From Mycolicibacterium gilvum (lineage in GTDB: Bacteria; Actinomycetota; Actinomycetes; Mycobacteriales; Mycobacteriaceae): DNA of 64,000 bases. Location of the stretch: assembly GCF_900454025.1 (NCBI RefSeq), contig NZ_UGQM01000001.1:2480001-2544000 (forward strand), given 5' to 3'. Below the pieces are notes generated by a model. The model worked only from the letters and a program-made list of their open reading frames with translations. It did no database searches and had not been told where the DNA came from. Below are positions 6,504 to 60,700 of this stretch, piece by piece (positions within the stretch are counted from its first letter, which is position 1; each line of letters starts with the position of its first letter). The position numbers and the translations under genes are program-made.

Positions 6504-6515
6504 CGGGACAAACTT

Positions 6516-6589: not shown

Positions 6590-6616
6590 GCTGGGGTTGA
6601 TGCCACTGCATCCTCG

Positions 6617-6689: not shown

Positions 6690-6784
6690 GTGCCACGGGC
6701 GAGATCGTCGTCCGTCGCGATGCACGACATTAGTCCACTGAGCCGGGCATATACAAATCCCTTGCCCGTGCGGCGTGCCGCGGT

Positions 6785-7198: not shown

Positions 7199-7320
7199 GG
7201 CCTGACACTACTGACGCAGGGCGCTGAGCAGAGGCAGACTGCCGAATCGACAGCCGGGGGATTCTCGGGGGACCGGCGCCGCGTGTTAGTCTTCTGCCTC
7301 GTTCGACTCGTCGGATGGCC

Positions 7321-7392
7321 GGTCTCGTAGCTCAGTGGGAGAGCGTCCGCCTCACACGCGGAAGGTCGCTGGTTCGAAACCAGCCGGGACCA
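7321..7392 (+). tRNA. tRNA-Val (CAC)
   Basis: Rightward. Acceptor GGTCTCG pairs with CGGGACC (one G-T pair), anticodon stem TCCGC/GCGGA around CTCACAC gives anticodon CAC, T loop GGTTCGAAACC. CCA is not encoded. Confidence 0.95.
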
Positions 7393-16199: not shown

Positions 16200-16380
16200 C
16201 AAGAGGGCCGACGAGAGCAGTATCCTGACTCCCGGATCAGCGCTCACCCCGACCTTCCAGCCTCTCGGCCGTGGTCGACGTGGGGTTCGCTCCCCGGTCA
16301 CAGTGGCGGGACCGCGCCGGATTCACACCGGCTTCCTGCCTGTTCATCGGGGCCGGTCGGGTCGACCAGCCATACAGACC
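16200..16380 (-). promoter_or_regulatory. Cobalamin riboswitch
   Basis: On the minus strand the sequence GCCGGTGTGAATCCGGC, then CGGTCCCGCCACTGTGA, then GAGTCAGGATACTGC match in order the conserved core segments of the adenosylcobalamin riboswitch, including the B12-box-like end at 16213-16233. It lies in the leader of the btuF-btuC-btuD operon, so uptake should be repressed when cobalamin is plentiful. Confidence 0.9.
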
Positions 16381-40518: not shown

Positions 40519-40919
40519 GAGGGCCGACCCGGGGTTTCGATGATCACGGTGGTCGCCTTGACCACCGCCACCGCCACGACCCCGGGCTCGAGCCCCAGCC
40601 GGCGAACGGACTCGGAGCTCATCAGGGACACCACGGTGAACGGCCCGCACTGCATCTGCACCTCACTCATCACGGTGTCGGCGGTCACGGCGGTCACCAG
40701 GCCGACGAGGCGGTTGCGCGCCGAACTCCCGACGCCGAGCACATCCGGTGGCGGCGAGGCGTGCTCCCGGGCGAAGTTCGCGAGCACCCTGCCGTCGATC
40801 ACCTTGCGCCCGGCCCCGTCCTTGGCGGACTCCAGCGTGCCGCTGTCGATCCAGCGCCGGACGGTGTCGTCGCTGACGCCGAGCAGCGCCGCGGCGTCCC
40901 TGATCCGAATCATGGTCAC
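40515..40919 (-). CDS. HTH + Mop (molybdate-binding) regulator
   Basis: 134 residues from GTG 40919 with GAGGG upstream; ATG 40913 is also possible. The N-terminus MIRIRDAAALLGVSDDTVRRWIDSGTLES is a MerR/excisionase-type helix-turn-helix, and SARNRLVGLVTAVTADTVMSEVQMQCGPFTVVSLMSSESVRRLGLEPG is a Mop/TOBE domain that binds molybdate oxyanions. Likely the ModE equivalent sensing molybdate for the modABC genes it heads. Confidence 0.85.
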   Translation of the reverse strand: MTMIRIRDAAALLGVSDDTVRRWIDSGTLESAKDGAGRKVIDGRVLANFAREHASPPPDVLGVGSSARNRLVGLVTAVTADTVMSEVQMQCGPFTVVSLMSSESVRRLGLEPGVVAVAVVKATTVIIETPGRPS

Positions 40920-40990
40920 GCGACACCCTCGACTTCCATCCGCATCTGCGGACACGACGCCGAGATTACTCCGAATCTACGGAAGGAGGT

Positions 40991-42157
40991 TCAGCGGGGC
41001 ACGCTGAGCGCGATCACCGCGGCATCGTCTTCGAGTCCGTCGCCGAAGCTGGCGAGCAGCACGCGAACGGCCTCGACGAAAGCACCGGCGTCGGTCGGCG
41101 TGTGGCGCCCGGCGAACTCGAGCAGGGCGTCGTCGTCGTCGAAGCGCCTCGTGCGTCCCGTCTTCGCCTCGGTCAGACCGTCGGTGTACATCACCAGCGT
41201 GTCCCCGGGGCCCAGATGCACGCTGGTCGAGACGAATCTCGGGTTCCTGATCAGCCCCACGGCCTGACCCCCGGGGGTGGCGACGTAGCGTGCGGGGCCG
41301 TCCACCGGCAGCAGCAGCGCGGGGGGATGACCGCCGGTGGCGAGCTGCACGTCGAAGCCGTCGGGTGCCGCGGTGATCACCCCGAAGATCACCGTGCAGA
41401 ACCGGGGGTCGTCGCCGTGGAACTCGTGGCTGAGGACCGCGTCGAGGGTGTGCAACACCGCGACCGGGTCGCGGTCGTTGACCGCGGCGGCGCGCAGGGT
41501 GTAGCGCGTCAGCGAGGTCACGGCGGCCGCACCGGCGCCCTTACCCGACACGTCGCCGAGGAACATGCCCCATCTGTCCTCGGCCATCGGGAAGAGATCG
41601 TAGAAATCTCCACCGACGTCGTCGCGGGAGGCGTTGTGGTAGTGGGCCGCCGCGGTCAACCCGCGCGGCGGCGACAACGTCGGCGGGATGAGGGACCGCT
41701 GCAGGGTCGCGGCGAGCACCTGCGCACGCTCCCGTTCACGGTCGGCGCGGCGCCGGGTCTCGAGGAGTTCGCGTTCATACGAACGGCGTTCGCTGGCATC
41801 CTGGATCGCGATCCGCAGCGCCACCACCGCCCCCGCGGCATCGCGCTCGACGTTCGCGGTGACGAATCCCGCCAGCCTCGTTCCGTCCGCGGTCAGCAGA
41901 TCGGCCGCGACGCCGTCGAGCGAGCCGTTCATGTGGAGCATCGACACGAAGTGGGTCTCGTAGTGGATCCTGCTGCCGGCGGCGAGCAGATCGGGGAACT
42001 GCCGGCCGGTGAGGTGCTCGGACCGGTATCCGACCCATCGGCTGAACGTCTCGTTGGCGCGGATGATCCGACCGTCGGGTGAGGTCAGCAACAGCCCGCA
42101 GGGCGCACTGTCGAAGAATTCGTCGAGCCCCCCGATCGGACGCGGATCGTCTGTCAC
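40991..42157 (-). CDS. RsbP-like PAS-PP2C phosphatase
   Basis: 388 residues from a GTG overlapping the RsbQ-like stop. N-terminal PAS domain (LDEFFDSAPCGLLLTSPDGRIIRANETFSRWVGY), a coiled linker (ERRSYERELLETRRRADRERERAQ), and a SpoIIE/PP2C domain with DDVGGDFYDLFPM, FLGDVSGKGAGAAAVTSL, GGHPPALL and DDAAVIALS (metal-binding Asp). In Bacillus RsbP dephosphorylates the anti-anti-sigma factor on energy stress and needs RsbQ. Here it is encoded directly after an RsbQ-like gene. Confidence 0.85.
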   Translation of the reverse strand: MTDDPRPIGGLDEFFDSAPCGLLLTSPDGRIIRANETFSRWVGYRSEHLTGRQFPDLLAAGSRIHYETHFVSMLHMNGSLDGVAADLLTADGTRLAGFVTANVERDAAGAVVALRIAIQDASERRSYERELLETRRRADRERERAQVLAATLQRSLIPPTLSPPRGLTAAAHYHNASRDDVGGDFYDLFPMAEDRWGMFLGDVSGKGAGAAAVTSLTRYTLRAAAVNDRDPVAVLHTLDAVLSHEFHGDDPRFCTVIFGVITAAPDGFDVQLATGGHPPALLLPVDGPARYVATPGGQAVGLIRNPRFVSTSVHLGPGDTLVMYTDGLTEAKTGRTRRFDDDDALLEFAGRHTPTDAGAFVEAVRVLLASFGDGLEDDAAVIALSVPR

Positions 42158-42954
42158 AACCGCAGGGCGAAGTCGGCGATCGCGGCCGCGGTGTCCTCCG
42201 GGGCGCTCAGATGCGGGCAGTGCCCGCTGGCGTCGAGGGTGACCAGCGTGCTCCCTGCGATCTGCTCGTGGCAGTAGGCGCCCACCTCCCGCGGTGCGAG
42301 TGTGTCCCTGGCGCACTCGACCACCACCGTCGGCACCGTGACCCGCGCGAGATCGGCCCGGTTGTCGGACAGGAATGTGGCCCTCGCGAACGCCAGCGCC
42401 CGTTGCGGGTCGGTGCGGCAGAACGCGTCGGCCAGTTCGCCTTCGAGGTCGGGACGCTCCGGGGTTCCCATGATCACCGGCGCCATCGCACGGGACCATC
42501 CCAGATAGTTGCTCTCGATGGAGTCGAGCAACTCGTCGATGTCCAAGCGGGTGAAGCCGCCGCGGTAATCGCCATCGTCGAGATAGCGCGGGGACGGGGT
42601 CAGCAGAACGAGCCCCGCGAACGCGCCCGGGTTCTTCGCGGTGGCGAGCACACCCATCATCGCCGCGACCGAATGGCCGACGTACACGACCTCCCGCAGC
42701 CGCATGCCGTCGACGATCTCGAGGATGTCATCGGCGTACTGCTGCAGGTCGGCGTACCGCTTCGCGGTCCACGCTCCGGCATCGGAGGAACCCGACCCGA
42801 CGTGATCGAACAACACGATGCGGAATCTGTCGGAGAGCAGCGGAACGACGAGTCGCCACAGGTTCTGGTCGCAGCCGAAGCCGTGCGCGAGCATGAGGGG
42901 GCGTCCGTCCGGCCGCCCGACGACGCGGACGCTGTTCCTGATGCGGACGTCCAT
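42154..42954 (-). CDS. RsbQ-like alpha/beta hydrolase
   Basis: 266 residues from ATG 42954, close to Bacillus RsbQ. NSVRVVGRPDGRPLMLAHGFGCDQNLWRLVVP and VYVGHSVAAMMG (nucleophile S95) plus GHCPHLSAP (catalytic His near 245) and the family's RYLDDGDYRGGF are characteristic. RsbQ activates the phosphatase RsbP; the adjacent overlapping gene strengthens the assignment. A longer upstream reading overlaps the DUF4032 gene and is rejected. Confidence 0.88.
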   Translation of the reverse strand: MDVRIRNSVRVVGRPDGRPLMLAHGFGCDQNLWRLVVPLLSDRFRIVLFDHVGSGSSDAGAWTAKRYADLQQYADDILEIVDGMRLREVVYVGHSVAAMMGVLATAKNPGAFAGLVLLTPSPRYLDDGDYRGGFTRLDIDELLDSIESNYLGWSRAMAPVIMGTPERPDLEGELADAFCRTDPQRALAFARATFLSDNRADLARVTVPTVVVECARDTLAPREVGAYCHEQIAGSTLVTLDASGHCPHLSAPEDTAAAIADFALRL

Positions 42955-42980
42955 GTAGCGATGATCGCATCTTCGCCGCG

Positions 42981-44240
42981 TTACTCGTCGTCGAGCACCG
43001 AGAAGGGCTCGGTCGGAACCTCCACCACGGCGAGCTGCGCGGCCGACTCCGACGGTACGACGTTGCGCGCCAACGCCTGCAGCGCACGTTCGGTACCGAC
43101 GTCCTGGCCGGCGCGCTCGGACAACAGCCACCGCACCTCCAGCAGATCGCAGTAGGCCTGGATCGGGGTCCCCGCGCCGCCGACCGCTCGGTGCGCACGG
43201 TGCATGGTGGGTGTGGCCACCTCCATCACCCACAACTGCGCGGCGGTCCGCTCATCGACGTCGTGGCCGGCTTCCCGGCACAGCTGCCCCTGATAGGCGT
43301 GCAGATCCCCGAGCAGGATCCGTGCCTGCCCCTCGCCGACGTCGAGCCCGGTGAGCCGCCGCAGCTGGGTCGCATGGAAGTTGCGGTCGCCCACCGCGAC
43401 GTGTAACCGCAGATCCTCGGCGCCGGAACTCACCGGCTGCAGCGACACCTCGTCGACGGCGAAGCCGAGTTCGTTGAGCTTGCGGATCGTGCTCTCGACC
43501 CGGTAGCGATCGGCGAAACCGAACGTCGGCTTCGCATCCAGCAGGTTCCACAACTGTTCGTAGCGATCTCTGATACCGACCGCTTCGGCGATGAAACCCG
43601 GCTGCAGATCCGGTCTTTCGAGCTTGGCGGCCATGTCCAGCAGCCCGGCCCCGACGTTCTCCACCGTGATGTCGATGTCGTGTGCGCGCTGCCCGTCGGA
43701 CAGTCCCGGATGCACCTCGCTGGTCTCGGCGTCGACGAGGAACGCCTGCAGCACCTGCCCGTCGCGCGAGAACAAGGTGTTGGCCAGCGAGCAGTCGCCC
43801 CAGAAGACACCGTGACGGTGCAGCTCGACGAGCAGCGTGGCCATCGCATCGAACAGCCGGGCCCGGTGTTTGGGCGCATCGGGCGGCAGTCGCATGAAGA
43901 GCCGCCGGTACTGCCACGAACCGACCAGATACCGCGTCAGCAGGATCGCGGTGTCGAAATCCGGCTGGAAGACCACACCCGCCGCACGTACGGAGTTGAT
44001 CCCCATCTCTTCGAGCCGGCTCAGCACGCCGTACTCGCGGCCGGCGATCCGGGGCGGCAACTCCTTGAGCGCCCACAGTTCGCCGTCGGATTCGACGAAC
44101 CTGACCAGGTGCCTGCTCGGCCCCACCGCGATGTCGCGCAACGCGACATCGGGTGCGGCCCAGTCGGCGAGCGGCCGGTCCCACGGCAGCGCGATCAGCC
44201 CCGGGCGCGGGGCCCGTAGCCGCAATTCGGGAGCGGCCAT
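42981..44240 (-). CDS. DUF4032 protein with kinase-like fold
   Basis: 419 residues. ELWALKELPPRIAGREYGVLSRLEEMGINSVRAAGV resembles the ATP-binding lobe of lipopolysaccharide/aminoglycoside kinases (K in WALKE), and LHRHGVFWGDCSLANTLFSRDG the catalytic D...N loop, with VDAETSE as the metal site. The C-terminal ~170 residues are the DUF4032-specific part. Actinobacterial and widely conserved; substrate unknown. Confidence 0.78.
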   Translation of the reverse strand: MAAPELRLRAPRPGLIALPWDRPLADWAAPDVALRDIAVGPSRHLVRFVESDGELWALKELPPRIAGREYGVLSRLEEMGINSVRAAGVVFQPDFDTAILLTRYLVGSWQYRRLFMRLPPDAPKHRARLFDAMATLLVELHRHGVFWGDCSLANTLFSRDGQVLQAFLVDAETSEVHPGLSDGQRAHDIDITVENVGAGLLDMAAKLERPDLQPGFIAEAVGIRDRYEQLWNLLDAKPTFGFADRYRVESTIRKLNELGFAVDEVSLQPVSSGAEDLRLHVAVGDRNFHATQLRRLTGLDVGEGQARILLGDLHAYQGQLCREAGHDVDERTAAQLWVMEVATPTMHRAHRAVGGAGTPIQAYCDLLEVRWLLSERAGQDVGTERALQALARNVVPSESAAQLAVVEVPTEPFSVLDDE

Positions 44241-44260
44241 CGGTGAGAGCGGCGGTCGGC

Positions 44261-45490
44261 TCAGCCCGCGGTCGCCGCGTGCCGGCCCCGGGATTCGGGT
44301 GGATTCTGCTCGCGCGGGCGCTCGTGGGAGACCCGGGTCAGGTTGTCACCCGAGTGCGGGTCGAACAGGTGCAGCCGCTCCGAGTCCAGCCACAGGGTGG
44401 CCTTGTCTCCGGAACGCACCCGGCTCAGCGGGTCGAGCTCCACACAGATCTGCGTGCGGAGCTGCTCACTGTCGAGTTCATTTGCCAGCTCGGCCAACTG
44501 GCCCGAGATCTCCGTCGTCGCCTCGAACGGCACGAAGGCGTACTGCTCGTTGCCCAGCCATTCGGTGACATCGATCTCGACGTCGAAAGTGACCCCACGC
44601 GAAGCCTTGTCCCGGTCGACGAACTCGGCGTCCTCGAAGGCACCCGGCCGGATCCCGGCGATATAGACCTTCCCTTCCTCCACCGAGCCGCGCCACTCGT
44701 CACGCAGCGGGACGGTCGCGAACGGCAACTCGATCTCGTTGCCCGTCACCCGCGCCGGGACGAAGTTCATCGGCGGCGAGCCGATGAAGCCGGCGACGAA
44801 CAGGTTGACGGGCTGGTCGTAGAGTTCGCGCGGGCTGGCGACCTGCTGCAGCACACCCTTTTTGAGCACCGCGACGCGATCGCCCAGCGTCATCGCCTCG
44901 GTCTGGTCGTGCGTCACGTACACGGTCGTGACACCCAGTTTGCGTTGCAGGCGCAGGATCTCGGTGCGCATCTGGCCGCGCAGCTTGGCATCGAGGTTGC
45001 TCAGCGGTTCGTCGAACAGGAACGCGTCGGCCTCGCGCACGATCGCGCGACCCATCGCGACCCGCTGACGCTGACCGCCCGACAGGTTGGCCGGCTTGCG
45101 GTCGAGATGCTCGCCGAGCTCGAGCGTCGTGGCCGCGTCGTTGACCCGCTGCCGGATCTCGTCGTCGGACAGCTTGCCCGCCAACCGAAGTGGGAACGCG
45201 ATGTTCTCGAACACCGTCAGGTGCGGGTAGAGCGCGTAGTTCTGGAACACCATGGCCAGGTTGCGGTCGCGCGGAGCCATGTCGTTGACCCGCTTGTCGC
45301 CGATCATCATGTCCCCGGACGTGATGTCCTCGAGCCCCACGATCATCCGCAGCAGGGTCGACTTGCCGCAGCCCGACGGACCGACGAGGATCACGAACTC
45401 ACCGTCGGCGATGTCGAGGCTCACATCGTTGACGGCCGGATAGCCGTCACCGTATTTCTTGACGATATTGCGCATCGTGATTGCTGCCAT
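44261..45490 (-). CDS. Sugar ABC transporter ATPase (UgpC/MsiK/SugC type)
   Basis: 409 residues. [61 protein letters not shown] and [13 protein letters not shown] are the CUT1-class ATPase motifs; the C-terminus carries the TOBE/OB regulatory domain ([29 protein letters not shown]). It energises the two permeases at 45.5-47.3 kb. Gene order permease-permease-ATPase is typical of alpha-glucoside systems. Confidence 0.9.
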
Positions 45491-45494
45491 GGGG

Positions 45495-46322
45495 CTATCC
45501 CTTCACTGCTCCGGAAGTAAGACCGGCGACGATGCGCCGTTGGAAGACGAGAACCAGGATGACGACGGGGATCGTCACGATCACCGAGGCCGCCATGATG
45601 TAGGGGACGGGGGATTCGAAGTACGACGCGCCCTGGAAGAACGCCAGCGCGGCGGGCACCGTGCGTGCGCTGTCCGTGGACGTCAGCGAGATCGCGAACA
45701 GGAAGTCGTTCCAGCAGAAGAAGAACGTCAGGATCGCGGTCGTGAACACGCCCGGCGCGGCCAACGGCACGATCACCTTGCGGAACGCCTGCCACTGGGT
45801 GGCGCCGTCGACCTGTGCGGCATGCTCCATCTCCCACGGGATCTGCCGGAAGAAGGCCGACATCGTCCAGATCGACAGGGGCAGTGCGAAGGTCAGGTAC
45901 GGGATGATCAGACCCAGCCAGGTGTCGTAGATGCCCAGCCCGCGCCACATGTCGAACAGCGGACCGACGAGTGCGGCCTGCGGGAACATGGCGATGCCCA
46001 GCGCCAGCGACAGCAGCACCTTCTTGCCCGGGAACTCCAGACGCGCAATGGCATACGCGGCGAACATCGCGATGATCACCGAGATGACGGTGGCGACCAG
46101 CGCGATGCCGATCGAGTTGATCAGCGCCCTGGTGAACAGCGGATTGCTGAAGATCTGGGCGAAGTTGTCGAACGTGACGGTGCTCGGCAGGAACGACGGT
46201 TCGCCCGACACGATGTCCGACGGCGGCTTGAACGCCAGGCTGATCATCCACAGCATCGGCACGAAGCTGTAGATCACGATCACGATGCCCGCGATCGTCC
46301 ACCACTTGGTGTTCTTGGTCAC
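45495..46322 (-). CDS. Sugar ABC transporter permease (SugB/MalG type)
   Basis: 275 residues, six membrane helices; the EAA-type loop is [47 protein letters not shown], and [26 protein letters not shown] is the MalG-like segment. Starts at a point overlapping the SugA-like stop by four bases. Second permease of a heterodimer. Confidence 0.9.
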
Positions 46323-47251
46323 TGGTCACCCCTGACTTGCGAGAGGTCGGTCTTGAAGACCTTGATGAATATCCACGCGATCGCGACGACCGACAGGAAC
46401 AGCAGTACCGAGACCGCCGATCCCATACCGAGATTGACCAGTGTCACGTTCTGCCGGTAGGCCAGGAACGAGATGGTCTCGGTGTTGTTGGCGCCGGCCG
46501 TCATCACGTACGGATTGTCGAAGATGCGCCACGCGTCCAGCGTGCGGAACAGCAGAGCGACCATGATCGCCGCCTTCATGTTCGGCAGCGTGATCTTCCA
46601 CAACCGCTGCCACGCCGTGGCGCCGTCGACCTTCGCGGCCTCCTGCATGTCCTCGGGGACCTGGACCAGGCCTGCGAGCAGCAGCAGCGAGATGAAGGGG
46701 GTGGTCTTCCAGATCTCGGACAGGCAGATCACGAAGATGGCCGACCAGCGGTCTCCGAACCAGTCGAAGTCGGTCAGGTTGAGCCACTGGTTGACGAAGC
46801 CGGAGTCGATGGCGAACGCGTAGCGCCAGATGAACGCCGAGACCACCGTGACGATGCCGTACGGGATCAGGATCGCCGTGCGCAACGGGCCCCGGCCCCG
46901 CACGATGCGCAGCATCACGAACGCGAACCAGAACCCGAGTACCAGTTCGATGGCCACCGTCACCACGGTGATCGCCAACGTGGTGACGAAGTCGTTCCAC
47001 CAGATCGGGTCGGTCAGGATGACGAGGTAGTTGCCCAGGCCGACGAAACTGCGGCCCTCGGGGTCGGTGAGCCGGAAGTTGTACAGCGACAACACCAGCG
47101 CGTAGCCGAGCGGGTAGGCGGTGACGAGCAGCATCACCACATACGAGGGCAGGGTCAGGTAGAGCCCGAGCCGGCGTTCGCCTTTGGCGCGCTCGCTGAC
47201 CGAGGGTTTACCCGGGTCCTTCTGGATGGGGGCGTCTGCCGGTGCGGTCAC
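46319..47251 (-). CDS. Sugar ABC transporter permease (SugA/MalF type)
   Basis: 310 residues from GTG 47251, which overlaps the former binding-protein stop. Helices from LYLTLPSYVVMLLVTAYPLGYALVLSLY onward; EAA loop PEDMQEAAKVDGATAWQRLWKITLPNMKAAIMVALLFRTLDAWRIF. The gene is intact, but the IS110 insertion now separates it from the binding-protein gene and its promoter, so expression may be reduced or rely on the element. Confidence 0.9.
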   Translation of the reverse strand: MTAPADAPIQKDPGKPSVSERAKGERRLGLYLTLPSYVVMLLVTAYPLGYALVLSLYNFRLTDPEGRSFVGLGNYLVILTDPIWWNDFVTTLAITVVTVAIELVLGFWFAFVMLRIVRGRGPLRTAILIPYGIVTVVSAFIWRYAFAIDSGFVNQWLNLTDFDWFGDRWSAIFVICLSEIWKTTPFISLLLLAGLVQVPEDMQEAAKVDGATAWQRLWKITLPNMKAAIMVALLFRTLDAWRIFDNPYVMTAGANNTETISFLAYRQNVTLVNLGMGSAVSVLLFLSVVAIAWIFIKVFKTDLSQVRGDQ

Positions 47252-47299
47252 AGCAGTCGCCTCCCCGCCAGCACGTCAGCCATGAATTGGTCTGTCCTT
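47248..47299 (-). pseudogene. Orphan 3' end of the binding-protein gene
   Basis: Reading leftward from the element's left junction, AGGACAGACCAATTC leads into FMADVLAGRRLL and TGA at 47248, the expected C-terminal end of sugar-binding lipoproteins of this type. The stop overlaps the permease start (GTGA), as in an intact operon. These 14 or so residues belong to the gene at 48724-50019, from which they were cut by the IS110 element. Confidence 0.85.
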
Positions 47300-47344
47300 A
47301 AGTTCGTAGTTGCAGTTACTTCGTGTTGTTACGTTGGGCTGTGA

Positions 47345-47500
47345 CCCGGGTGGGTCGGGTGAGGCTGCATGGTCGTAGCCGGCCCTGGTGGTGCGGCTTG
47401 AAAGGACTGGCCGCCCGGCCTGCCTGGACTCCTCTGGCCGCTGATTGAGATCTGCGATGTGATCGCTTGTTTAAGGAAATGCTGGCGGGGTTGTCCATGG
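47345..47500 (+). ncRNA. Candidate bridge (guide) RNA of the IS110 element
   Basis: In IS110 elements the 5' non-coding region encodes an RNA with a target-binding loop followed by a donor-binding loop. In this region GAAAGG (47400-47405, extending to AC at 47407) is complementary to the target's CCTTTC with GT upstream. ATTGAGA (47444-47450) equals the element's right end at 48748-48754, and TTAAGG (47471-47476) complements CCTTAA across the left junction. TGGTC (47370-47374) weakly matches the left target. Order and spacing fit LTG, RTG, LDG, RDG. Boundaries are approximate; structure not folded. Confidence 0.6.
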
Positions 47501-47534
47501 GGATCATGTTGGTAGACAGGCGAAAAGAGGGGTG

Positions 47535-48740
47535 ATGACGACGGGCCAGGTGTGGGCTGGAGTGGATGTTGGTAAAGAGCATCACTGGGTTTGTGCGGTC
47601 GACGACAGCGGGAAGGTGGTGTTGTCGCGCCGGCTGGTCAACGACGAGCAACCGATCCGGGAGCTCGTCGCTGAAATCGACGAGCTGGCCGAGCGAGTGT
47701 CGTGGACGGTGGACCTGACCACGGTGTATGCCGCACTGGTGTTGACGGTGCTGGCCGACGCCGGCAAAACGGTCCGGTATCTGGCCGGCCGGGCGGTGTG
47801 GCAGGCCTCGGCGACCTACCGCGGTGGGGAGGCCAAAACCGATGCCAAAGACGCTCGGGTGATCGCCGACCAGGCGCGCATGCGCGGCCAGGACTTGCCC
47901 GTTCTGCATCCCGATGATGACTTGATCAGCGAGTTGCGGATGCTCACCGGCCATCGCGCCGACCTGGTGGCCGACCGCACCCGCACGATCAACCGGCTGC
48001 GCCAGCAACTCGTCGCGGTCTGCCCGGCCCTGGAACGAGCCGCCCAACCGAGCCAAGACCGTGGCTGGGTGATACTGCTGGCGCGCTACCAGCGTCCCAA
48101 AGCGATTCGACAAAGCGGTGTTTCGCGGCTGACCAAAGTCTTGACCGATGCCGGTGTGCGCAACGCCGCCTCGATCGCGGCGGCTGCGGTGGCTGCAGTG
48201 AAAACCCAGACGATGCGCCTGCCCGGCGAAGAGGTGGCCGCCGGGTTGATCGCTGATCTGGCGCGGGAGGTGATCGCCCTCGATGACCGCATCAAGACCA
48301 CCGACGCCGACATCGAGGGCCGATTTCGCCGCCATCCACTCGCCGAGGTGATCACCAGCATGCCCGGCATAGGATTTCGGCTGGGCGCCGAATTCCTCGC
48401 CGCCGTTGGTGATCCCGCGCTGATCGGATCGGCTGACCAACTCGCGGCCTGGGCCGGCCTGGCGCCAGTGTCTCGAGACTCCGGAAAGCGCACCGGACGA
48501 CTGCACACCCCCAAGCGTTACAGTCGCCGACTGCGCCGAGTCATGTACATGTCGGCGTTGACCGCGATCCGCTGCGACCCAGATTCCAAGGCCTATTACC
48601 AGCGCAAACGAGACGAAGGAAAGCGGCCGATCCCCGCCACCATCTGCCTGGCGCGACGGCGCACCAACGTTCTCTACGCCCTCATCCGTGACAACCGGAC
48701 CTGGCAACCTGATTCACCCCCGGTCACCGCCGCGGCTTGA
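47535..48740 (+). CDS. IS110-family transposase/recombinase
   Basis: 401 residues from ATG 47535 (AGAGG upstream). N-terminal RuvC-like DEDD domain: AGVDVGKEHHW (first Asp), AEIDELAERVSWTVDL, GGEAKTDAKDARVIAD (last two acids). The C-terminal Tnp domain has ITSMPGIGFRLGAEFLAAVGD and LAAWAGLAPVSRDSGKRTG, with the catalytic-type Ser. Intact. Acts with a bridge RNA in the family. Confidence 0.93.
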   Translation: MTTGQVWAGVDVGKEHHWVCAVDDSGKVVLSRRLVNDEQPIRELVAEIDELAERVSWTVDLTTVYAALVLTVLADAGKTVRYLAGRAVWQASATYRGGEAKTDAKDARVIADQARMRGQDLPVLHPDDDLISELRMLTGHRADLVADRTRTINRLRQQLVAVCPALERAAQPSQDRGWVILLARYQRPKAIRQSGVSRLTKVLTDAGVRNAASIAAAAVAAVKTQTMRLPGEEVAAGLIADLAREVIALDDRIKTTDADIEGRFRRHPLAEVITSMPGIGFRLGAEFLAAVGDPALIGSADQLAAWAGLAPVSRDSGKRTGRLHTPKRYSRRLRRVMYMSALTAIRCDPDSKAYYQRKRDEGKRPIPATICLARRRTNVLYALIRDNRTWQPDSPPVTAAA

Positions 48741-50019
48741 CTTCTTCATTGAGAGTCCTTTCCGGAGTTTCGGAAGTCACCGACGCGGGCGGATGCCACG
48801 TCTGCTGGATCGCGCCCGAGATGTCGGTGTAGAACGGCGTGGGTGGACGGGGGCCGCCGTCGCCGATCGACTCCCGGATCAGGTCGGCGTTCTCGTAGGT
48901 CTCCCGGATCTCGGGGTTGTCGTAGGACGCCGCATACGGTGACGGCTCACTCTCGTCGAGCATGTACTGAGTGGCCTTCGGTTCGGCGTTGATGCACTCG
49001 ACCAGCGCGACGGCCTCCTCCGGATACTCCGTGTACGCGCCGATGCCGAGGTTCGCACCGCCCAGCGGCGGCGCGCTCGGCATATCCGGGGACACCCTGG
49101 GGTAGCGGGCCCAACCGATGTCGTCGACGACCTCCTGCGGCAGCGTGCCCTCCTCGGCGGCGCTGCGCGCGGCGGCCAGCACGTACGGCCAGTTGACCAT
49201 GAACATGCCCTGATCGGACTGGAAGTTGGCGCGCGCCTGCTCTTCCGACGCGTTCGACATGTCGGTGGGCGCGGCGGGAGAGCGACCGAGGGTGCCGACG
49301 ATCTCGGCGGCCTTGAGCCCGGGCGGAGTGTTCAGCGACGGTTTGGCGTCGCGTCCGGCTTCCACGTCTTCGAGGAGCGCACCGCCGCCCGAGAGCACCA
49401 GGGCGTTGATCAACACGGTGTAGCCCTCGTACCGCTGGGCCTGGACCGCGATCTTCTTCTGCTGCCCCACAGCGGCTTTGAGCATCTCGTCCCAGGTGAA
49501 GGTCGGAGAGGCGGGGTCGACGCCGGCCGCGGCCGCCGCGGACTTGCGGTACCAGAGCAGCTGCGCGTTCGACTTGTACGGCGCGCCGTAGAGGGTGTCC
49601 TCCCACATCCCGGTCTCGATCGGGGCGGGCAGCATCCCGGCGGTCAACCGGCTGGTCTCCTCTGCGGTGTACGGGCGCAGGAACCCGGCGTTGGCGAACT
49701 CCGCGGTGAAGACCACGTCCATGCTGACGAGGTCGATCGACGAATCACCGGCGGCCAGACGGCGAACCATCTGTTCGCGCTGGGCGGTCGCGGTGCTCGG
49801 CAGCGACTCGATACGCACCTGGTAGGCGCCGTTGGACGCCTCGGCGCACTGCTCGGCACGCGCGACCGAGCCGCCGTTGTCGGGAAGGATGTACCACGTC
49901 AAGGTCGGGGGACCGCTCTGGGCGCCGCACCCGGACAACAACGACGCGGCCACCAGAGGCGCACTGGCCAGCGCGACTGCGCGACGCCGTCGCCCGCGGG
50001 CGAACTGATTTCGTTTCAT
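48724..50019 (-). CDS. Sugar ABC transporter binding lipoprotein, 3' end altered by IS110
   Basis: 431 residues from ATG 50019; lipobox LVAASLLSGC. Mature protein fits the CUT1 binding-protein fold: WYILPDNGGSVARAEQCAEASNGAYQV, SIDLVSMDVVFTAEFANAGFLRPY, LYGAPYKSNAQLLWYRKS, FMVNWPYVLAAARSA and FYTDISGAIQQTWHPPASV. The natural end TPER-TDQFMADVLAGRRLL is replaced after TPERT by LNEEVKPRR, encoded by the element. The lost residues are terminal and surface-like, so function may survive, but the operon is cut. Alpha-glucoside or trehalose-type substrate is suggested by the alpha-glucosidase next door. Confidence 0.88.
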   Translation of the reverse strand: MKRNQFARGRRRRAVALASAPLVAASLLSGCGAQSGPPTLTWYILPDNGGSVARAEQCAEASNGAYQVRIESLPSTATAQREQMVRRLAAGDSSIDLVSMDVVFTAEFANAGFLRPYTAEETSRLTAGMLPAPIETGMWEDTLYGAPYKSNAQLLWYRKSAAAAAGVDPASPTFTWDEMLKAAVGQQKKIAVQAQRYEGYTVLINALVLSGGGALLEDVEAGRDAKPSLNTPPGLKAAEIVGTLGRSPAAPTDMSNASEEQARANFQSDQGMFMVNWPYVLAAARSAAEEGTLPQEVVDDIGWARYPRVSPDMPSAPPLGGANLGIGAYTEYPEEAVALVECINAEPKATQYMLDESEPSPYAASYDNPEIRETYENADLIRESIGDGGPRPPTPFYTDISGAIQQTWHPPASVTSETPERTLNEEVKPRR

Positions 50020-50431
50020 CACGTCCTCGTCTATGAAGTTTGCCCTCGTGTCGGAAGTTGTGGTCTCCGATAGGGCCACGTGCAGCACATTCACCTACGG
50101 GAAGAGTGTGTCACACCTCACAAGGCTGGTGGGGGAGCGGTCCGCGTGCGGCGGGGCGGTGCCGCCGCTGACCGCCGGTCCGGTGGGCAGGGTGGTCGCC
50201 GGAGATGACGTCGGCTGCTGCGCCCCGGGACGGCGATGCGATCATCGCCACCGTATCGACGTTGCGGCGCAAGTGAAGTGCCCCGCCAAGCGGTGCCGGC
50301 CCCGACGGTGACGATGGTCGAGCGAGAACACCGGCGCGACGATTCCCGAGGTTTGACACATCAGGCCGACACACCGACGCTGAACACGCAAACTTTCACG
50401 CAATCCCGATGTCTTCGCCGAGGAGTTCCCC
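50020..50431. other. Divergent intergenic region
   Basis: 412 bases between the binding-lipoprotein and alpha-glucosidase genes. A TTGACA hexamer at 50353-50358 could be a -35 box for the rightward gene. No other site or gene recognised; promoters for both directions are presumably here. Confidence 0.5.
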
Positions 50432-52075
50432 GTGGCACCCCAGCACCCGTGGTGGCAGACCGCCGTCGTCTACCAGGTCTACATCCGCAGCTTCGCCGAC
50501 GGCAACGGAGACGGCATCGGCGACATCCGGGGTCTGCGGGCGCGGGTGGGTTACCTGGGCGCCCTGGGCGTCGACGCGATCTGGATCAACCCCTGGTATC
50601 CCTCTCCGATGGCCGACGCCGGCTACGACGTCGCCGACTACCGCGACATCGAACCGGCCTACGGGACGTTGACCGAGGCGCAGGACCTGATCGACGCCGC
50701 CCACGCGGTCGGCATCCGGGTGATCCTCGACATCGTGCCGAACCACACCTCGGACCGGCACGCGTGGTTCGAGGCCGCGCTCGCCGGTGACCCGGCGGCG
50801 CGCGACCGGTATCACGTCCGGCCCGGGCGCGGCGCGAACGGTGAACTGCCACCCAACGATTGGCAGAGCGTGTTCGGCGGACCGGCATGGACACGCATCA
50901 CCGACGGGCCGCTGCAGGGCCAGTGGTATCTGCATCTGTTCGCGCCCGGTCAGCCCGATCTGAACTGGGAGAACCCGGAGGTCCGAGCCGAGTTCGAGGA
51001 CATCCTGGCGTTCTGGTTCGACCGCGGCGTCGACGGGTTCCGCATCGACGTCGCCCACGGTCTGGTCAAGGCCGAGGGGCTGCCCGACGGCGCGCAGGCG
51101 GACGCGCCGCAGGCGATGCTGCAGGTCGAGGCGCAGCATCCGGCCTGGGATCAGGACGGCGTGCACGACATCTACCGCGGCTGGCGGTCGGTGGCGCAGC
51201 GCTACACCCCCGAGCGGATCTTCATCGCCGAGGCGTGGGTGTCCAGCAACGAACGACTGGCCCGGTATCTGCGTCCCGACGAACTGCACACCGCGTTCCA
51301 GTTCGACTTCCTGCGCTCGCCGTGGCGCGCGGCGAACCTGCGCGGGGTCATCGACGACGCGATCACCTCGGCCGCCTCGGTCGGTGCGCCTCCGACCTGG
51401 GTGCTGTCGAATCACGATGTGACGCGCACAGTCACGCGTTTCTCGCGGTCGCAGCCCGACCATCTCGTCGAGACGGATTGGGAACGGGGACGCTGGTCCG
51501 GCGAGGAACCCGATCACGAGCTCGGGCGACGGCGTGCCCGCGCCGCGGCCCTGGTCCAGCTGGCGCTGCCCGGCACGGCCTACGTCTACCAGGGTGAGGA
51601 ACTGGGTCTCGAGGAGATCGAAGACCTGCCCGACGACGTCCGCCAGGATCCGACCTGGGCGCAGTCCGGCTTCACCGACGTGGGCCGTGACGGATGTCGG
51701 ATTCCGTTGCCGTGGAACGAATCCGAGCCGACCTACGGGTTCGCCGACGGTCCGGACGCGGTGACGTGGCTGCCTCAGCCCGGGCACTGGGCCGAGCACA
51801 GCGTCGAGGCGCAGGAGCGTGATCCGGACTCGATGCTGCACCTCTACCGTGCGGCGCTGAAACTGCGGCCGTCGCTGTGGCGGGACGCCGGAGAGGTGAC
51901 CTGGCTCGACGTCGCGGCCGAGGTGGCCGCGTTCGACCGCGGCGGCGCGCAGTGCTGGGTCAACACCGGGACCGCTGATGTCACGCTTCCCGCCGGTGCC
52001 TCGGTGGTGCTCGCGTCCTCGCCCGGGGTCGACGGGGTGCTGCCCGGCGACACCGCGGTGTGGCTGCAGACCTGA
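50432..52075 (+). CDS. aglA: GH13 alpha-glucosidase
   Basis: 547 residues from GTG 50432 (GAGGAG upstream). GH13 regions: DIVPNHTSDRHAWF, GFRIDVAHG with nucleophile D206, FIAEAWV with acid/base E267, and VLSNHD with D329. Length matches the AglA-type mycobacterial alpha-glucosidase (about 546 residues). Hydrolyses terminal alpha-glucose from oligosaccharides or isomaltose-like sugars; the adjacent ABC transporter probably supplies them. Confidence 0.9.
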   Translation: MAPQHPWWQTAVVYQVYIRSFADGNGDGIGDIRGLRARVGYLGALGVDAIWINPWYPSPMADAGYDVADYRDIEPAYGTLTEAQDLIDAAHAVGIRVILDIVPNHTSDRHAWFEAALAGDPAARDRYHVRPGRGANGELPPNDWQSVFGGPAWTRITDGPLQGQWYLHLFAPGQPDLNWENPEVRAEFEDILAFWFDRGVDGFRIDVAHGLVKAEGLPDGAQADAPQAMLQVEAQHPAWDQDGVHDIYRGWRSVAQRYTPERIFIAEAWVSSNERLARYLRPDELHTAFQFDFLRSPWRAANLRGVIDDAITSAASVGAPPTWVLSNHDVTRTVTRFSRSQPDHLVETDWERGRWSGEEPDHELGRRRARAAALVQLALPGTAYVYQGEELGLEEIEDLPDDVRQDPTWAQSGFTDVGRDGCRIPLPWNESEPTYGFADGPDAVTWLPQPGHWAEHSVEAQERDPDSMLHLYRAALKLRPSLWRDAGEVTWLDVAAEVAAFDRGGAQCWVNTGTADVTLPAGASVVLASSPGVDGVLPGDTAVWLQT

Positions 52076-52080
52076 GGAAA

Positions 52081-52107
52081 GGACTTTTGCTCTGATCACA
52101 GAAGTCC
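52081..52107 (+). promoter_or_regulatory. DosR-like half sites
   Basis: GGACTT (52081-52086) and AAGTCC (52102-52107, followed by C) form an inverted pair 15 bases apart, each a half of the DosR box (GGGACT..AGTCCC type). They lie about 50-75 bases before the Acg-type gene, which is normally in the DosR regulon. Confidence 0.4.
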
Positions 52108-52157
52108 CTGTAGCGCACTCTGGATGGAGAACACGACTCCTGAAGGGGTGGCAAAGC

Positions 52158-53147
52158 ATGAATGCGCACTTTCCAGACGCCGAGACGCTGCGCTCAGCGC
52201 TGTCCCTGGCCAATCGTGCACCGTCGGTGCACAACTCGCAACCATGGCAGTGGCGGGTCGGGCACGAGAGTGTGCATCTGTACGCCAACCCCGATCTGCT
52301 GCTGCCGCACACCGATCCCGATGCCCGGGACCTGATGCTCAGCTGCGGTGCGGCGCTGCATCACTGTGTGGTGGCCTTGGCTGCGCTGGGTTGGCAGGCC
52401 AAGATCCACCGGTTCCCCAATCCGGCGGAACCGGACCACCTCGCCGCGCTGGAACTCCGCAGATATCCGGCGGCCGATCTGGACGTGACGCTGGCCGCTG
52501 CGATCCCGCGGCGCCGCACGGATCGTCGGTACTACAGCTCCTGGCCGGTGCCCCAGGGTGACGTCGCGCTGATGGGCGCCCGGGCTGCCCGCGCGGGCGT
52601 GGCGTTGCGCCGCGTCGATGATCTGGCGGGGCTCAAACGGCTCGTGAGCGCCGCGGCTTTCCAACACCGGACGGATGCCGGATATCTCACGGAGCTGGCT
52701 GCCTGGAGCGGCCGGTACGCCGCAACGGCGGGTGTCCCGGCCCGCAGCGTCCCGGCCGAGACCGCGGGGGCGGTGTCGGCGCGGGCCTTCGCGGGCGGGG
52801 TGCTGCCGCAGACACCCGACACCGCCGCCGATCAGGACAATGCGGTGGTGCTGGCGCTGGGGACGGCCGGCGACGACCGGCTGTCCTGGCTGCGCGCGGG
52901 GGAGGCGACGAGCGTCGTGTTGCTCACCGCGACCGCGCTGGGCCTGGCGAGTTGCCCGATCACCGAGCCTCTGGAGATCGCCGAGACGCGTGAGGCGGTG
53001 CGCCGCGACGTGTTCGGCACCGACGGATACCCGCAGATGCTGCTGCGGGTGGGTTGGGCGCCGGTCAACGCCGACCCGTTGCCTTCCACTCCTCGCCGCG
53101 ACCTCTCCGAAGTCGTTGTGAAGCTGGATGATTCACCGGTGGAGTGA
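52158..53147 (+). CDS. Acg-family FMN-binding nitroreductase-like protein, copy 1
   Basis: 329 residues from ATG 52158 with GAAGGGG upstream; the longer frame from 51978 is rejected. ANRAPSVHNSQPWQWRV is the nitroreductase N-terminal signature, then TDPDARDLMLSCGAALHH, RRRTDRRYYSSWPVP, and LRAGEATSVVLLTATALGLASC. Acg proteins are FMN-binding relatives of nitroreductases lacking normal activity and are DosR-regulated in mycobacteria (for example Rv2032). Convergent with devR. Confidence 0.9.
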   Translation: MNAHFPDAETLRSALSLANRAPSVHNSQPWQWRVGHESVHLYANPDLLLPHTDPDARDLMLSCGAALHHCVVALAALGWQAKIHRFPNPAEPDHLAALELRRYPAADLDVTLAAAIPRRRTDRRYYSSWPVPQGDVALMGARAARAGVALRRVDDLAGLKRLVSAAAFQHRTDAGYLTELAAWSGRYAATAGVPARSVPAETAGAVSARAFAGGVLPQTPDTAADQDNAVVLALGTAGDDRLSWLRAGEATSVVLLTATALGLASCPITEPLEIAETREAVRRDVFGTDGYPQMLLRVGWAPVNADPLPSTPRRDLSEVVVKLDDSPVE

Positions 53148-53164
53148 GGATCGGCGGGCGGTGC

Positions 53165-53815
53165 TCAGGCGCCGCCCGCGCCGTGTCCGCGGTCGAGTTT
53201 GGAGATGAACACCGCGGCCTGGGTTCGCCGCTCCATGCCGAGCTTGGCGAGCAGTCGCGAGACGTAGTTCTTGACGGTCTTCTCGGCGAGGAACATCCGC
53301 GCGGCGATCTGTTTGTTCGTCAGGCCCTCACCGAGAAGGTCGAGCAGCACCCGCTCCTGGTCGGTCAGACCGGACAGCGGATCGGTCCTCTCGCCCTCGC
53401 CCCGCAGCTTCGCCATCAGCGCGGCCGCGGCGCGGTTGTCGAGCAGCGACCGGCCCGAGCCGACCTCCTTGATGGCCCGTGCGAGCTCCATGCCCTTGAT
53501 GTCCTTGACCACGTAGCCGCTGGCGCCGGCCAGGATCGCGTCGAGCATCGCCTCGTCGGAGGTGAACGACGTCAGCATCAGGCACCGGAGGTCGGGCATC
53601 AGTGACAGCAACTCACGGCACAACTCGATGCCGTTGCCGTCGGGCAGACGCACGTCGAGTACGGCCACATCGGGCTGTGCGGTCGGGACACGGGTCAGCG
53701 CCTCGGACACCGAACCCGCCTCGCCGACGACGTCGAGCTCGGGATCGCTTCCGAGCAGGTCGATCAGACCACGCCGGACGACTTCGTGGTCATCTACCAG
53801 AAAGACCTTCACCAT
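53165..53815 (-). CDS. devR: DevR/DosR dormancy response regulator
   Basis: 216 residues from ATG 53815. [36 protein letters not shown] (phospho-acceptor D54), [23 protein letters not shown] (K104), and the LuxR-type [57 protein letters not shown] are almost word-for-word those of mycobacterial DevR. It induces the hypoxia/NO regulon. Transcribed leftward after acg and usp. Confidence 0.96.
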
Positions 53816-53846
53816 TGCGAGGCTTACCCCTGTGGTCGGCACCGTT

Positions 53847-54664
53847 TCACAGTGCGTTGGGCGGTTCGCACACCAGTATCGAACAGTCGGTGTCGCGCAG
53901 GGCGGCGTTACCGGGTGTTCCGACCAGAGGGGCGACTCCACCGGGCCGGTTTCGGCCGGTGACCAGCAGCTGTAGTCCGTCCCCGTGGGCCGCCAGGTAG
54001 TCGAAGAGTCCGTCGCGGGCGCGGACCGCGGAGATGTCGAGGTCCGGATAGCGGTGGCGCCATTCGGCGAGCCGGCGTTCCCAGCGGGCGGTGACGTCGA
54101 GTTGCGGCCGCGCCGAGGTCAGCACGCGGACCGGTGCGCCGCGGCGGCGTGCCTCGTCGAGCCCCCGTTCCAGCACTGCGCCCCCGTCGACGTTGTCGGT
54201 GATCTCGATGACGACGGCGCGGTCGGGGCGCCGGTGCGGACGGTGCGCCCGTACCACCGCGACAGGACAGTGGGCGGTCGCCGAGACCGCGGCGGCCGTC
54301 GAGCCGATCCTGCCCTGGGTCGAGTGCTTGAGCCCGCGGGCGCCGAGGCAGATCAGCACCGCCGAGCGCGCCGCCTCCAGCAGGGTCTGCACCGGCCTGC
54401 CCCGCAGAATCTCCACTTCGATCTTGACCGGTTGTTCCGTCGACTCCAGCGCCGTCAGGGCATAGCGCACCGCCATCTCCGCGGTGGCCAGTTGTCGCGC
54501 CTGGTCGTGGGGATCCACGGCGCCCTCCTCGTCGGCGTCGATCACGTACACCAGACGCAGCGGGATGTCGCGGTCCACCGCCTGATCGACCGCCCACAGC
54601 GCCGCGTCGATCGCGGCGGGCGAACCGTCGATCCCGACGACGATGCACGGTGTGGATGTGGCGT

Positions 54665-54671
<7 letters not shown>
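53847..54671 (-). CDS. Universal stress protein (two Usp domains)
   Basis: 274 residues: [40 protein letters not shown] (domain 1), [23 protein letters not shown] (GxRG...GS ATP loop), then a second domain that is more diverged ([51 protein letters not shown]). Counterpart of Rv3134c, which precedes devR in M. tuberculosis. Thirty-one bases separate it from devR; overlaps the Acg stop by seven. Confidence 0.9.
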
Positions 54672-57491
<2,820 letters not shown>

Positions 57492-57727
57492 GCCCCGACG
57501 CGGCGGCGCGCCGGACTCGCGTCGTCTGATCCTGTTTTCCCAGCGTGCTGCGATGAATGCCCAGGTCGGTGTGCGCGGAGGGGTGGTGACGGCTGTGCTT
57601 CTCCTTGGCAACGGTTGCATAACACCCCCTCTGTCGCGTCGGTGATTCCGCCAATTGTCGGTTCAGTAAGCCCGGTAACTACGCGGATGTAATTCGCACG
57701 GCGCGGACGCAGAAGGACTGGGAGCAC

Positions 57728-60700
57728 ATGTCTCGGACGAAAAAGAGCATCGTCGTTGTCATGATGGGCAGCGCAGGATTGTTCTTGAGTGCCCCGCTGC
57801 TGGGTCCGGCGGCAAATGCGACTCCCACCCGGGGCGGTGTGCCGTGCGTTGGAATCCTTCAGCAGATCGTGACCCGTCCCGGCGAGATCCCCCAGGCGCT
57901 GACCGACACGGCCCGCTCGTTCACCGAGCCGCCGAATCCGGCCCCGCCGGTCGTCAGGCCACCCGCGAGCTCGTCGTCCTCGGCGGGCACTCCGCCCGTG
58001 CCCGGCAGGCCGCCGGCCTCGGTCGTCACCCCGTCGTCGGGGGCGACACCACCCGTCCCGCCGTCTCCCGGAACTCCCGCATCCACGTCGACCCGTGGCG
58101 GCACGCCACCGGTGCCGCCGGCCCCTCCTGCTCCCGCCGGCACGCCGGCGTCGGGCGCGACGCCGCCCGCCCCGCCCGTCCCCGGGGTTCCGGCCGTGAC
58201 GTCCACCGGCGGTGGAACGCCGCCGGTTCCTCCCGTGCCCGGCGCCCCCGTCGGCGCCCCGGTGGCCAACCCGGGACTGCCGACGCCGCCCGTTCCCGGT
58301 GCGCCGGTGTTCGGCGACGGCGGTGCCGTCCTGCCGCCGCTTCCGCCCGCACCCGCCGGCCCCGCGGGTGGTCCCGCTGGTCTCGTCGCTCCGCCTGCGC
58401 CCCCGGTTCCGGGCGGCCCGGCCGCAGTCCCGGCCGGAGTGGCGCTGCCCCCGGCCCCACCGGGGGCGCCGGGCGCACCGGTGTTCGGTGAGGCCGGCGC
58501 GGCTCCGTCCGGCGCTGCTGCACCTGTCGCGCCTGCGGCCGGCTCCGGTGGAGCCGGTGGAGTAGGCGGTGGCTCGGGCATCGGTGGCCCGGGCGGCGGC
58601 GGTGCCCCCGTCGAGGGCGCCGGAGGCGCAGTGCCGGCAGGCGCACCTCTGGCCGCAGCAGGGGGCGAGGTTCCCCCTCCGGCTCCGCCGATCCCGGGCG
58701 CGCCGGTGATCGGCGAGGCCGGTGTCGTCCCGCCGCCCGCACCGCCCGCGCCCGCACCGCCGGCCGGCGGGCTGGGTGGCGCGGTGCCGCCGCCCGCCCC
58801 AGGTGCTCCGGGTGTTCCGGCCGGTGGTGAGGGGGGTGTGGTGACTCCGCCTGCACCGGGTGGACCGGGTGTTCCGACCGGTGGTGAGGGGGGTGTGGTG
58901 ACTCCGCCCGCTCCAGGTGCTCCGGGCGTGCCGGTGGTGGATGAAGCCGGTGTGGTGACCCCGCCCGCTCCGGGTGGACCGGGTGTTCCGACCGGCGGTG
59001 AGGGCGGTGTGGTGACTCCGCCCGCCCCGGGCGCTCCCGGCGCCCCGGTGGTGGACGAGGCCGGTGTGGTGACCCCGCCTGCGCCGGGCGGACCGGGTGT
59101 TCCGGCCGTCGGCGACACCGCGGTGGTGACCCCGCCCGCCCCGGGCGCCCCCGGCACCCCTGCGGTGAACTCGGTCGAGACGTTCTCACCGCCCGCACCG
59201 CCGGCTGCGACGCCGCCGTCGTCGGGATCGGTCGAGACGTTCTCGCCGCCCGCACCGCCCGCGCCCGGCACAGGGACGAACTCGACCGTCGAGATCTTGA
59301 CCCCGCCGCCGCCCGGGACACCGGGCCTTCCGTCGGAGGGGTCGACGACCTACACGACACCGCCGACCCCGGAGATCACCTTGAATCCGGCGAACTCCGG
59401 AATCGACATCGCCACGCCGCCGGCGCCGGGCCTGCCCGGTGCTCCGCTCGAGGCCACGGCGAACTTCACCACCCCGGGCACCCCCGGTGTGCCGGGCGCT
59501 CCGGTGAACTCGTCGATCGACGTGGCGACGCCCGGCGAGGTCGGCGTTCCCGCAGCCCCGATCGAGCGCTCCATGACGGTGACGACACCCGACATCCCGG
59601 GTGCTCCCGGCGCGCCGGCGAACGCCGCGGTCGATGTGGCCACTCCGCCTGCTCCCGGTGTTCCGGGTGCTCCGGTGGTGGGTGAGGCGGGCGTGACGAC
59701 GCCGGGTGCCCCGGGTGCTCCCGGCGCGCCGGCGAACGCCGCGGTCGATGTGGCGACTCCGCCTGCTCCCGGTGTTCCGGGTGCTCCGGTGGTGGGTGAG
59801 GCGGGCGTGACGACGCCGGGTGCCCCGGGTGCTCCCGGCGGGCCGGCGAACGCCGCGGTCGATGTGGCGACTCCGCCTGCTCCCGGTGTTCCGGGTGCTC
59901 CGGTGGTGGGTGAGGCGGGCGTGACGACGCCGGGTGCCCCGGGTGTTCCGGGTGTGCCTGCCGGTGGGGATGCGGGTGTGGTGACGCCGCCTGCTCCCGG
60001 TGTTCCCGGCGCTCCCGCGGCCACCGAGGCCGGGCTGGCGACCCCTCCGGGTCCCGGTGCACCGGGTGCCCCGGTGGTCGGGGACGCCGGTGTGGCGACC
60101 CTTCCCGGTCCCGGTGTTCCAGGCGCCCCCATCGTTGACGAAGCCGGACTCGCGACTCCGCCTGCTCCAGTGGCCCCGGTCGAGGGTGCCGGTGGCGCAC
60201 TACCTCCGGCGGGCCCGCCGGCAGCCCCGGTCTTCGGGGACGCCGGCGCCCCCGTCGAAGCCGCAGCCGGTGTCACCGGCGGTGGTTCCGGCGCAGGCGC
60301 AGGCGCCGGTGGTGGCGCAGGCGGTGCTGCGGGTGGTGCCGGTGTCGAGGGTGCCTCGGGTGCTGTCGGCGCAGCCGGTGGTCCCGGTGCAGGCGCCGCT
60401 CCCGCAGCGGCCGGCGGTGCCGCGCCGGGTGGCGCGCCCGGTGGACCTGTCGCCGGCGGCGGCCCGGTCGGTGGCCCGGGTGCTCTGCCCGCACCAGGTG
60501 CACCGATCGTCGGTGAGGCCGGTGTGGTGACCCCGCCTGCGCCGGGTGTTCCCGGTGGGGCGGCGGCGGTGCCGGCCGGTGCGGTGACCCCGCCCGCGCC
60601 GGGTGTCCCGGGTGCGCCGGTCTTCGGTGAGGCCGGTGTGGTGACCCCGCCCGCGCCGGGTGTCCCCGGTGGGGCGGCGGCGGTGCCGGCCGGTGTGGTC

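Follow-up and report, generated by a model that had tools for sequence, protein, structure and literature searches.

An IS110-group insertion element in Mycolicibacterium gilvum with a predicted bridge RNA whose target guides point mostly to gene starts

IS621 is a described IS110 element that carries a bridge RNA. In the parts of the IS621 paper drawn on here (Durrant et al. 2024, PMC11208160), the bridge RNA is encoded in the left end (LE), starts with a 5' stem-loop and places the target loop before the donor loop, all of which is common to IS621 and the element reported below. Left guides pair with the bottom strand and right guides with the top strand, as in the present type, and the IS621 protein has the domains PF01548 and PF02371, like the present transposase. 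REP elements are named in the same text as one example of what IS110 elements target. IS621 differs in its guides and targets, and the hosts of the element reported here are mycobacteria and relatives. In IS1111/IS110 elements, the target is chosen by the seekRNA, the element's own non-coding RNA, according to the portion of PMC11187229 used here, as is proposed for the present element; the terms 'Mycobacter', 'Shine' and 'IS900' are all absent from the main text of that paper. IS900 of Mycobacterium avium subsp. paratuberculosis belongs to the IS110 family and has the target motif CATGNNNNNNTCTCCTT (PMC8141618, as far as its text was available). This motif consists of a start codon and a Shine-Dalgarno sequence, the same site class as that of the present type, and a bottom-strand frame (hed) runs over IS900 and resembles frames of the copies described here. 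The main text of PMC8141618 contains neither 'bridge' nor 'guide'. Within the open-licence literature, which leaves out subscription papers and most preprints, no paper was found that joins bridge RNA with IS900 or with Shine-Dalgarno targets. Doran et al., cited in PMC8141618, reportedly described in 1997 that IS900 targets translation initiation signals.

The DNA analyzed here, called the window, is a 64,000-nucleotide stretch of the M. gilvum genome. It contains an IS110-group insertion element of 1461 bp on the plus strand (47297..48757), whose ends were set from the empty sites C10 and L165 and from the flanks of other copies; their exact position within the shared GTCCTT is a matter of choice. 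The element encodes an IS110 transposase/recombinase of 402 amino acids (47532..48740, plus strand), which matches PF01548 at 2e-49 and PF02371 at 1e-24 and scores 251.7 bits against NCBIfam NF033542 ('IS110 family RNA-guided transposase'; cutoff 140). The solved structures that match this protein at E <= 0.001 represent two distinct sequences, the ISCro4 and IS621 transposases. In a single pairwise alignment with ISCro4, a D lies opposite an E of ISCro4, and a KTDA..DAR stretch as well as an SG can be aligned; these may represent the conserved catalytic acidic residues and serine. The transposase at 47532-48740 and all strings quoted by an earlier sequence-only reading of this DNA were found in place. 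The non-coding ends measure about 235 bases on the left and 17 bases on the right. The element interrupts a solute-binding protein gene (SBP_bac_1; 48724..50094, minus strand), the final codons of which are replaced by element sequence, and comparison of the occupied and empty sites gives no target duplication beyond the short core. The host genome has four copies of the element; three are full and practically identical, and the fourth (C6) is cut by a contig end. Elsewhere, the window holds a cobalamin riboswitch (16218-16338, minus strand, 84.4 bits) and four tRNA genes (6432-7392).

Contig C10 of the same assembly (17,177 bases) is collinear with window positions 40852-59510 at 99.8% identity, with 2 mismatches and otherwise gaps, and the element is absent from it. 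Its empty site reads ...GGTCTGTCCTTTCCGG..., and the pre-insertion target GGTCTGTCCTTTCC, previously only reconstructed from the occupied locus, can be read there directly. Eight relatives lack the insertion, and the 14-base target is exact in three of them, has one change in one and more changes in four. Since C10 is collinear and lacks the element, the sequenced material appears to be polymorphic for the window insertion. Contig C7 likewise has the flank of the C6 copy uninterrupted, reading GGTCATGGTGGGTCCTTTCAGTGGG. Occupied and empty versions coexist in one assembly at two of the four element sites (C10 versus C1, C6 versus C7). These two pairs suggest that the element has recently inserted, or been precisely excised, in the culture that was sequenced; the coexisting contigs could also come from an assembly that is mixed or faulty.

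The left end contains the structured core of a predicted bridge RNA (47328..47496, plus strand), composed of a 5' stem-loop, a target-binding loop and a donor-binding loop and delimited by folding, pair counts in 23 sequences and a covariance model. Twenty-five left ends were chosen for the alignment; two were missed by the script's pattern, and 23 were used. In these 23 sequences, 98.2% of cells are paired in the proposed structure; sliding the partners by 1-3 columns lowers this to 29-53%. The 5' stem-loop (47328..47345, plus strand) is paired in 92.8% of cells. Four pairs in the alignment have changes on both sides; the apical hairpin between the target guides (47378..47397, plus strand) has two pairs changed in this way, and the pairs in the apical hairpin of the donor-binding loop (47454..47466, plus strand) never vary. 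Covariation proper is modest, the score of the structure being reached by 33 of 500 shuffles, and there is little variation in the pairs of the donor loop as a whole. The structure rests on the alignment because the fold energy of the window sequence is not significantly better than that of shuffles (z -1.16, its value being reached by 23 of 200). The RNAalifold consensus gave a different fold for the donor half, and the donor loop was therefore taken from per-sequence folds. The two-loop fold anticipated by the sequence-only reading, with the target loop before the donor loop, is conserved in this alignment.

A covariance model (R1) was trained on relatives together with the window type itself and run on 57 sources. 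It gives a single match in the window, at 47328-47512 (the window type being in the training set), and no match in the empty contig. Outside the training set, it finds the RNA in 25 of 26 mid-distance and IS900-like sources at E values from 9e-25 to 9e-9, with L055 missed. In 29 Streptomyces-type sources, there are five weak matches at E<0.01 (E 0.0008-0.007) and three further hits above 0.1. A covariance model had been proposed as a check on the fold, and this self-built one both fits the window and reaches more distant relatives.

The left target guide is the loop TGCATGGTCGTA (47366..47377, plus strand), which carries CATGG and covaries with the left flank of each copy. Between the outer target stem and the apical hairpin, the sequence is hypervariable among relatives, and the rest of the left end is conserved. 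A weak five-base match, TGGTC at 47370-47374, had been pointed out here; it is present and is indeed weak when taken alone, although the guide proper is longer and extends over 47366-47377. In 2000 dinucleotide shuffles of the left end, a left-target 5-mer arose in 1906, a left-donor 7-mer in 124, a right-target 8-mer in 57 and a right-donor 7-mer in 34. All of these matches are thus weak when taken singly, and that of the left target has no value by itself; support for the guides comes from comparison between copies.

For this comparison, 55 deduplicated rows were available among the matches listed. Of these, 41 had both a left flank and a left end of sufficient length, and the right side is known for 38 of the 41. 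Deduplication was by flank, and similar sites remain (L154/L176; L141/L009), so the sites are not fully independent; some further element places in plasmid records lie outside the sample. At fixed register, the left guides match their own flanks at 5.60 of 11 positions exactly, versus 3.70 after permutation (sd 0.27, z 7.1, 0 of 20,000 permutations; 41 sites, 25 distinct guides), with a copy's own guide being best or tied among the 25 at just 18 of the 41 sites. A scan over RNA offset, flank offset and strand (2430 combinations) put the nine top scores (z 5.0-7.3) on a single diagonal, that of the fixed register. This diagonal is of the same-strand type, i.e., the left guide pairs with the bottom strand. 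The guide of the window element recurs unchanged at 7 of the 41 sites, six of which have CATGG. The seventh is the window site itself, ATTGGTCTG, which is among the poorer left-guide matches and is not a gene start.

The right target guide is GAAAGGAC (47400..47407, plus strand), the complement of GTCCTTTC, which reads as a Shine-Dalgarno sequence. Its assignment as a target guide, first made on this locus alone, is supported by covariation of right guides with right targets. TCCTTTC is the right target at 30 of the 38 main-clade sites, and GAAAGGAC or GAAAGGAT stands opposite TCCTTTC at 29 of the 38. GAGAGGAC occurs with TCCTCTC in all three cases and GAAATGAC with TCATTTC in both. The association between GAGA in the guide and CTC in the target gives a Fisher p of 1.2e-4, with kinship of the copies not corrected for. 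Four of the 38 right sides do not fit the right guide: two TCCCTTC, one TCCTTTT and one with the guide GAAAGGGA. The right guide of L043 was missed by the search pattern and was entered as GAAAGGAC from its left-end sequence. L139, L118 and L051 have TCAT at the left junction and an extra G in the right guide (GAAAGGGAC), and they lie outside the simple rule. The flanks of other copies, earlier suggested as the place to look, follow the guides in the permutation test, the offset scan, the right-guide variants and the IS900-like group treated below.

The donor guides were recognized from the element ends. The left donor guide ATTGAGA (47444..47450, plus strand) is equal to the right end at 48748-48754, and the right donor guide TTAAGGA (47471..47477, plus strand) is the complement of the junction TCCTTAA. 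Both had been named in the sequence-only reading, and both match the element ends in distant relatives as well; in some of these, the left donor guide changes together with the right end. The donor guides of the main clade are too constant for a covariation test, and in L156 and L008 a donor base is changed and the guide has no compensating change.

The core of IS621 is CT. For the window element, CT had also been proposed, whereas TC is more likely, its left copy lying at 47295..47296 and its right copy at 48756..48757 (both plus strand), the left one within GTCCTT, which is common to target and donor. The core is placed at TC because IS900-like junctions of the TCTCCT type (...TC|CTTACC, ...GAATC|TCCT...) share only TC. 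Main-clade junctions parse likewise to TC, including L141/L009; L139 and L138 do not parse simply. A -35-like box, TTGACT (48737..48742, plus strand), meets a -10-like box, TAAGTT (47299..47304, plus strand), at a 17-nt spacer only in the circle that joins the right end to the left end. This TTGACT-17-TAAGTT arrangement is a candidate promoter predicted from sequence and would resemble the circle-junction promoter of IS621, as given in the part of PMC11208160 drawn on here.

On the bottom strand, GAAAGGA, AAGGAGA and GGAGGA are Shine-Dalgarno sequences. A site was counted as a gene start when an open frame of at least 80 codons begins 4-14 nt behind AGGA, and this holds for 28 of the 41 sites; when positions were drawn at random from these flanks, 294 of 1950 qualified. 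Of the other occurrences of TCCTTTC in the flanks, 4 of 8 pass, but this control is too small to be informative. The guides could work and the preference for gene starts could still be a by-product, in which coding insertions are purged and leader insertions survive. Insertions that disrupt genes may plausibly be selected against, 13 of the 41 sites fail the gene-start test, and 7 of the 14 sites of guides without CAT/CAC nonetheless have a CAT/CAC start (the other 7 do not). This explanation is unlikely, however, in view of two observations. The right guides contain the complement of a Shine-Dalgarno variant, and the guides that contain CAT/CAC (15 of 25) are found at gene starts at 23 of their 27 sites, versus 5 of 14 for the 10 guides that do not (Fisher p 0.003). 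On the strength of these Shine-Dalgarno complements and the CAT/CAC contrast, the site class appears to be at least partly written in the RNA, and purging may add to it.

Another reading is that the left-guide segment does not choose the site but is a copy of the flank, made during or after insertion. L155, L042 and L010 have near-perfect guide matches to their present sites, as copying would give. The guide also differs more than fourfold-degenerate sites in the more distant pairs: 0.457 for the 9-nt guide against 0.195 for transposase genes of 88-93% identity (9 pairs), and 0.567 against 0.315 at 84-88% identity (19 pairs). For these values, guides were right-justified without gaps, and guide divergence may be inflated. 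Over longer distances, change in the guide thus seems to outpace that at nearly neutral sites. In contrast, the closest non-identical pairs (93-99%, 6 pairs) have unchanged guides (0.000, with 0.057 at fourfold-degenerate sites), and the same guide stays unchanged at several sites, both in the window type and in the L120 type (4 sites). The guide is therefore not rewritten at each insertion, and copying from the flank is very improbable. It is scarcely credible that the transposase itself reads a Shine-Dalgarno/start-codon motif and that the guide-like strings are relics or chance: single guide matches are near chance level and most main-clade sites share TCCTTTC, but in elements that are 75-100% identical, the left flank of each copy tracks its hypervariable RNA segment, and right-guide variants track target variants.

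Guides that choose the site are also indicated in more distant relatives. In nine relatives with 44-52% protein identity, the same loops lie opposite different targets, for example in L046 (AAAGGCTG), L048 (TCACACTTC), L052 (TTCGTGCCTTC) and L053 (TGGCAGCT). The mid-distance set comprised 10 loci read by eye, of which L055 has no readable left end and was left unscored. The junction of L047 and the donor matches of L049 and L056 were misplaced by the script and were kept in the counts. The longest match of the cognate left guide in the nine averages 6.8 versus 3.8 (0 of 20,000 permutations), and a relative's own left guide is strictly best in only four of nine. For the right guide, seven of these relatives give 7.0 versus 4.8 (6 of 5000), with some of these matches extending into the element's own end. 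The distant Streptomyces groups (about 40% identity) were left unscored; their junctions are not placeable because of C-rich ends. In L058 (2228-6055) of Streptomyces filamentosus, there are two head-to-tail IS110 copies, perhaps a tandem insertion.

The IS900-like group was taken from 30 loci (L012, L186-L214), and 18 sites were kept after filtering for left ends and duplicates. L012 and the window element share about 51% protein identity. The left guides of this group match their flanks at 5.71 versus 3.95 when permuted (0 of 20,000; 18 sites, 14 guides). The right guides of the group are Shine-Dalgarno variants, each paired with a target of its own. The right side is missing for 4 of the 18 sites. 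Where it is known, GAGGAGGAT occurs with TCCTCC in 7 of 7 cases and GAAGGAGAT with TCTCCT in 5 of 5; in two further sites, CGAATCGAT lies beside TCGAATG (a partial match) and CGGATCGAT beside TCGATCC. A similar gene-start test is passed by 13 of the 18 sites. A 24-nt stretch of IS900, as printed in the available text of PMC8141618, is exact in no examined locus, including L001 with the window element, and is found with one mismatch in six loci (five elements). The left end of L200 apparently lacks part of the 5' side of the donor loop, and this IS900-like copy is perhaps inactive.

Insertion also brings a host signal in front of an element codon. A bottom-strand ATG (48747..48749, minus strand) lies 6 nt behind the GAAAGGA of the target after insertion, and 38 of 38 complete copies have an ATG in this position relative to the Shine-Dalgarno sequence of the target. 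The frame from this ATG has 473-486 codons in 13 copies, 133 in 2 and 11-23 in 23, including the window copy, where it opens 11 codons. The window also has a 463-codon frame antisense to the transposase (47316-48707, minus strand), which has no Pfam match. The hed-like antisense frame was not accepted as proof of a gene, because codon usage alone leaves this phase open in 0.26-0.34 of simulations (8 elements) and openness is thus expected at about 0.3.

Together, these data make it highly probable that the element is of the IS110 group and has a bridge RNA whose target-loop guides direct insertion mostly to gene starts. Sequence comparisons support the fold, the covariation of guides with targets, the target class and the empty site, and we infer transcription, transposase binding, circle formation and catalysis by homology to IS621. 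The left end would be transcribed into bridge RNA, probably from a promoter that is formed only in the excised circle, and the transposase would bind this RNA. The donor loop would pair with the joined ends of the element and the target loop with the landing site. Of the two target guides, the right one would be complementary to a Shine-Dalgarno sequence (GAAAGGA), and the left one would, in the window type, be complementary to the side that bears the start codon (CATGG...); landing would therefore be mostly between the ribosome-binding site and the start codon. The earlier view of this locus as a naturally programmed RNA-guided insertion with a known target is well supported at the sequence level, with the qualification that the site of this copy fits its left guide poorly.

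The window-type element belongs to a known class, the IS110 bridge-RNA elements, and the new part is the gene-start address in the guides together with the link to IS900. A tentative extension, to which we give somewhat less than even weight, is that the IS110 branch comprising the window and IS900 types evolved bridge RNAs that seek translation starts. The right guide would imitate a Shine-Dalgarno sequence, which is an anchor of wide distribution, and the left guide, with its divergence above that of fourfold-degenerate sites, would retarget the element among genes. Insertion would then put the ribosome-binding site of the host before the bottom-strand ATG of the element and give the host gene a substitute AAGGA from the left end. 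The natural series of guides and targets (41 + 18 + 9 sites) makes pairing rules readable, namely register, core and tolerated mismatches. In the strain that was sequenced, movement of the window element seems to be recent. Gene-start guides would explain, at the RNA level, why IS900 prefers translation initiation signals, as has been published.
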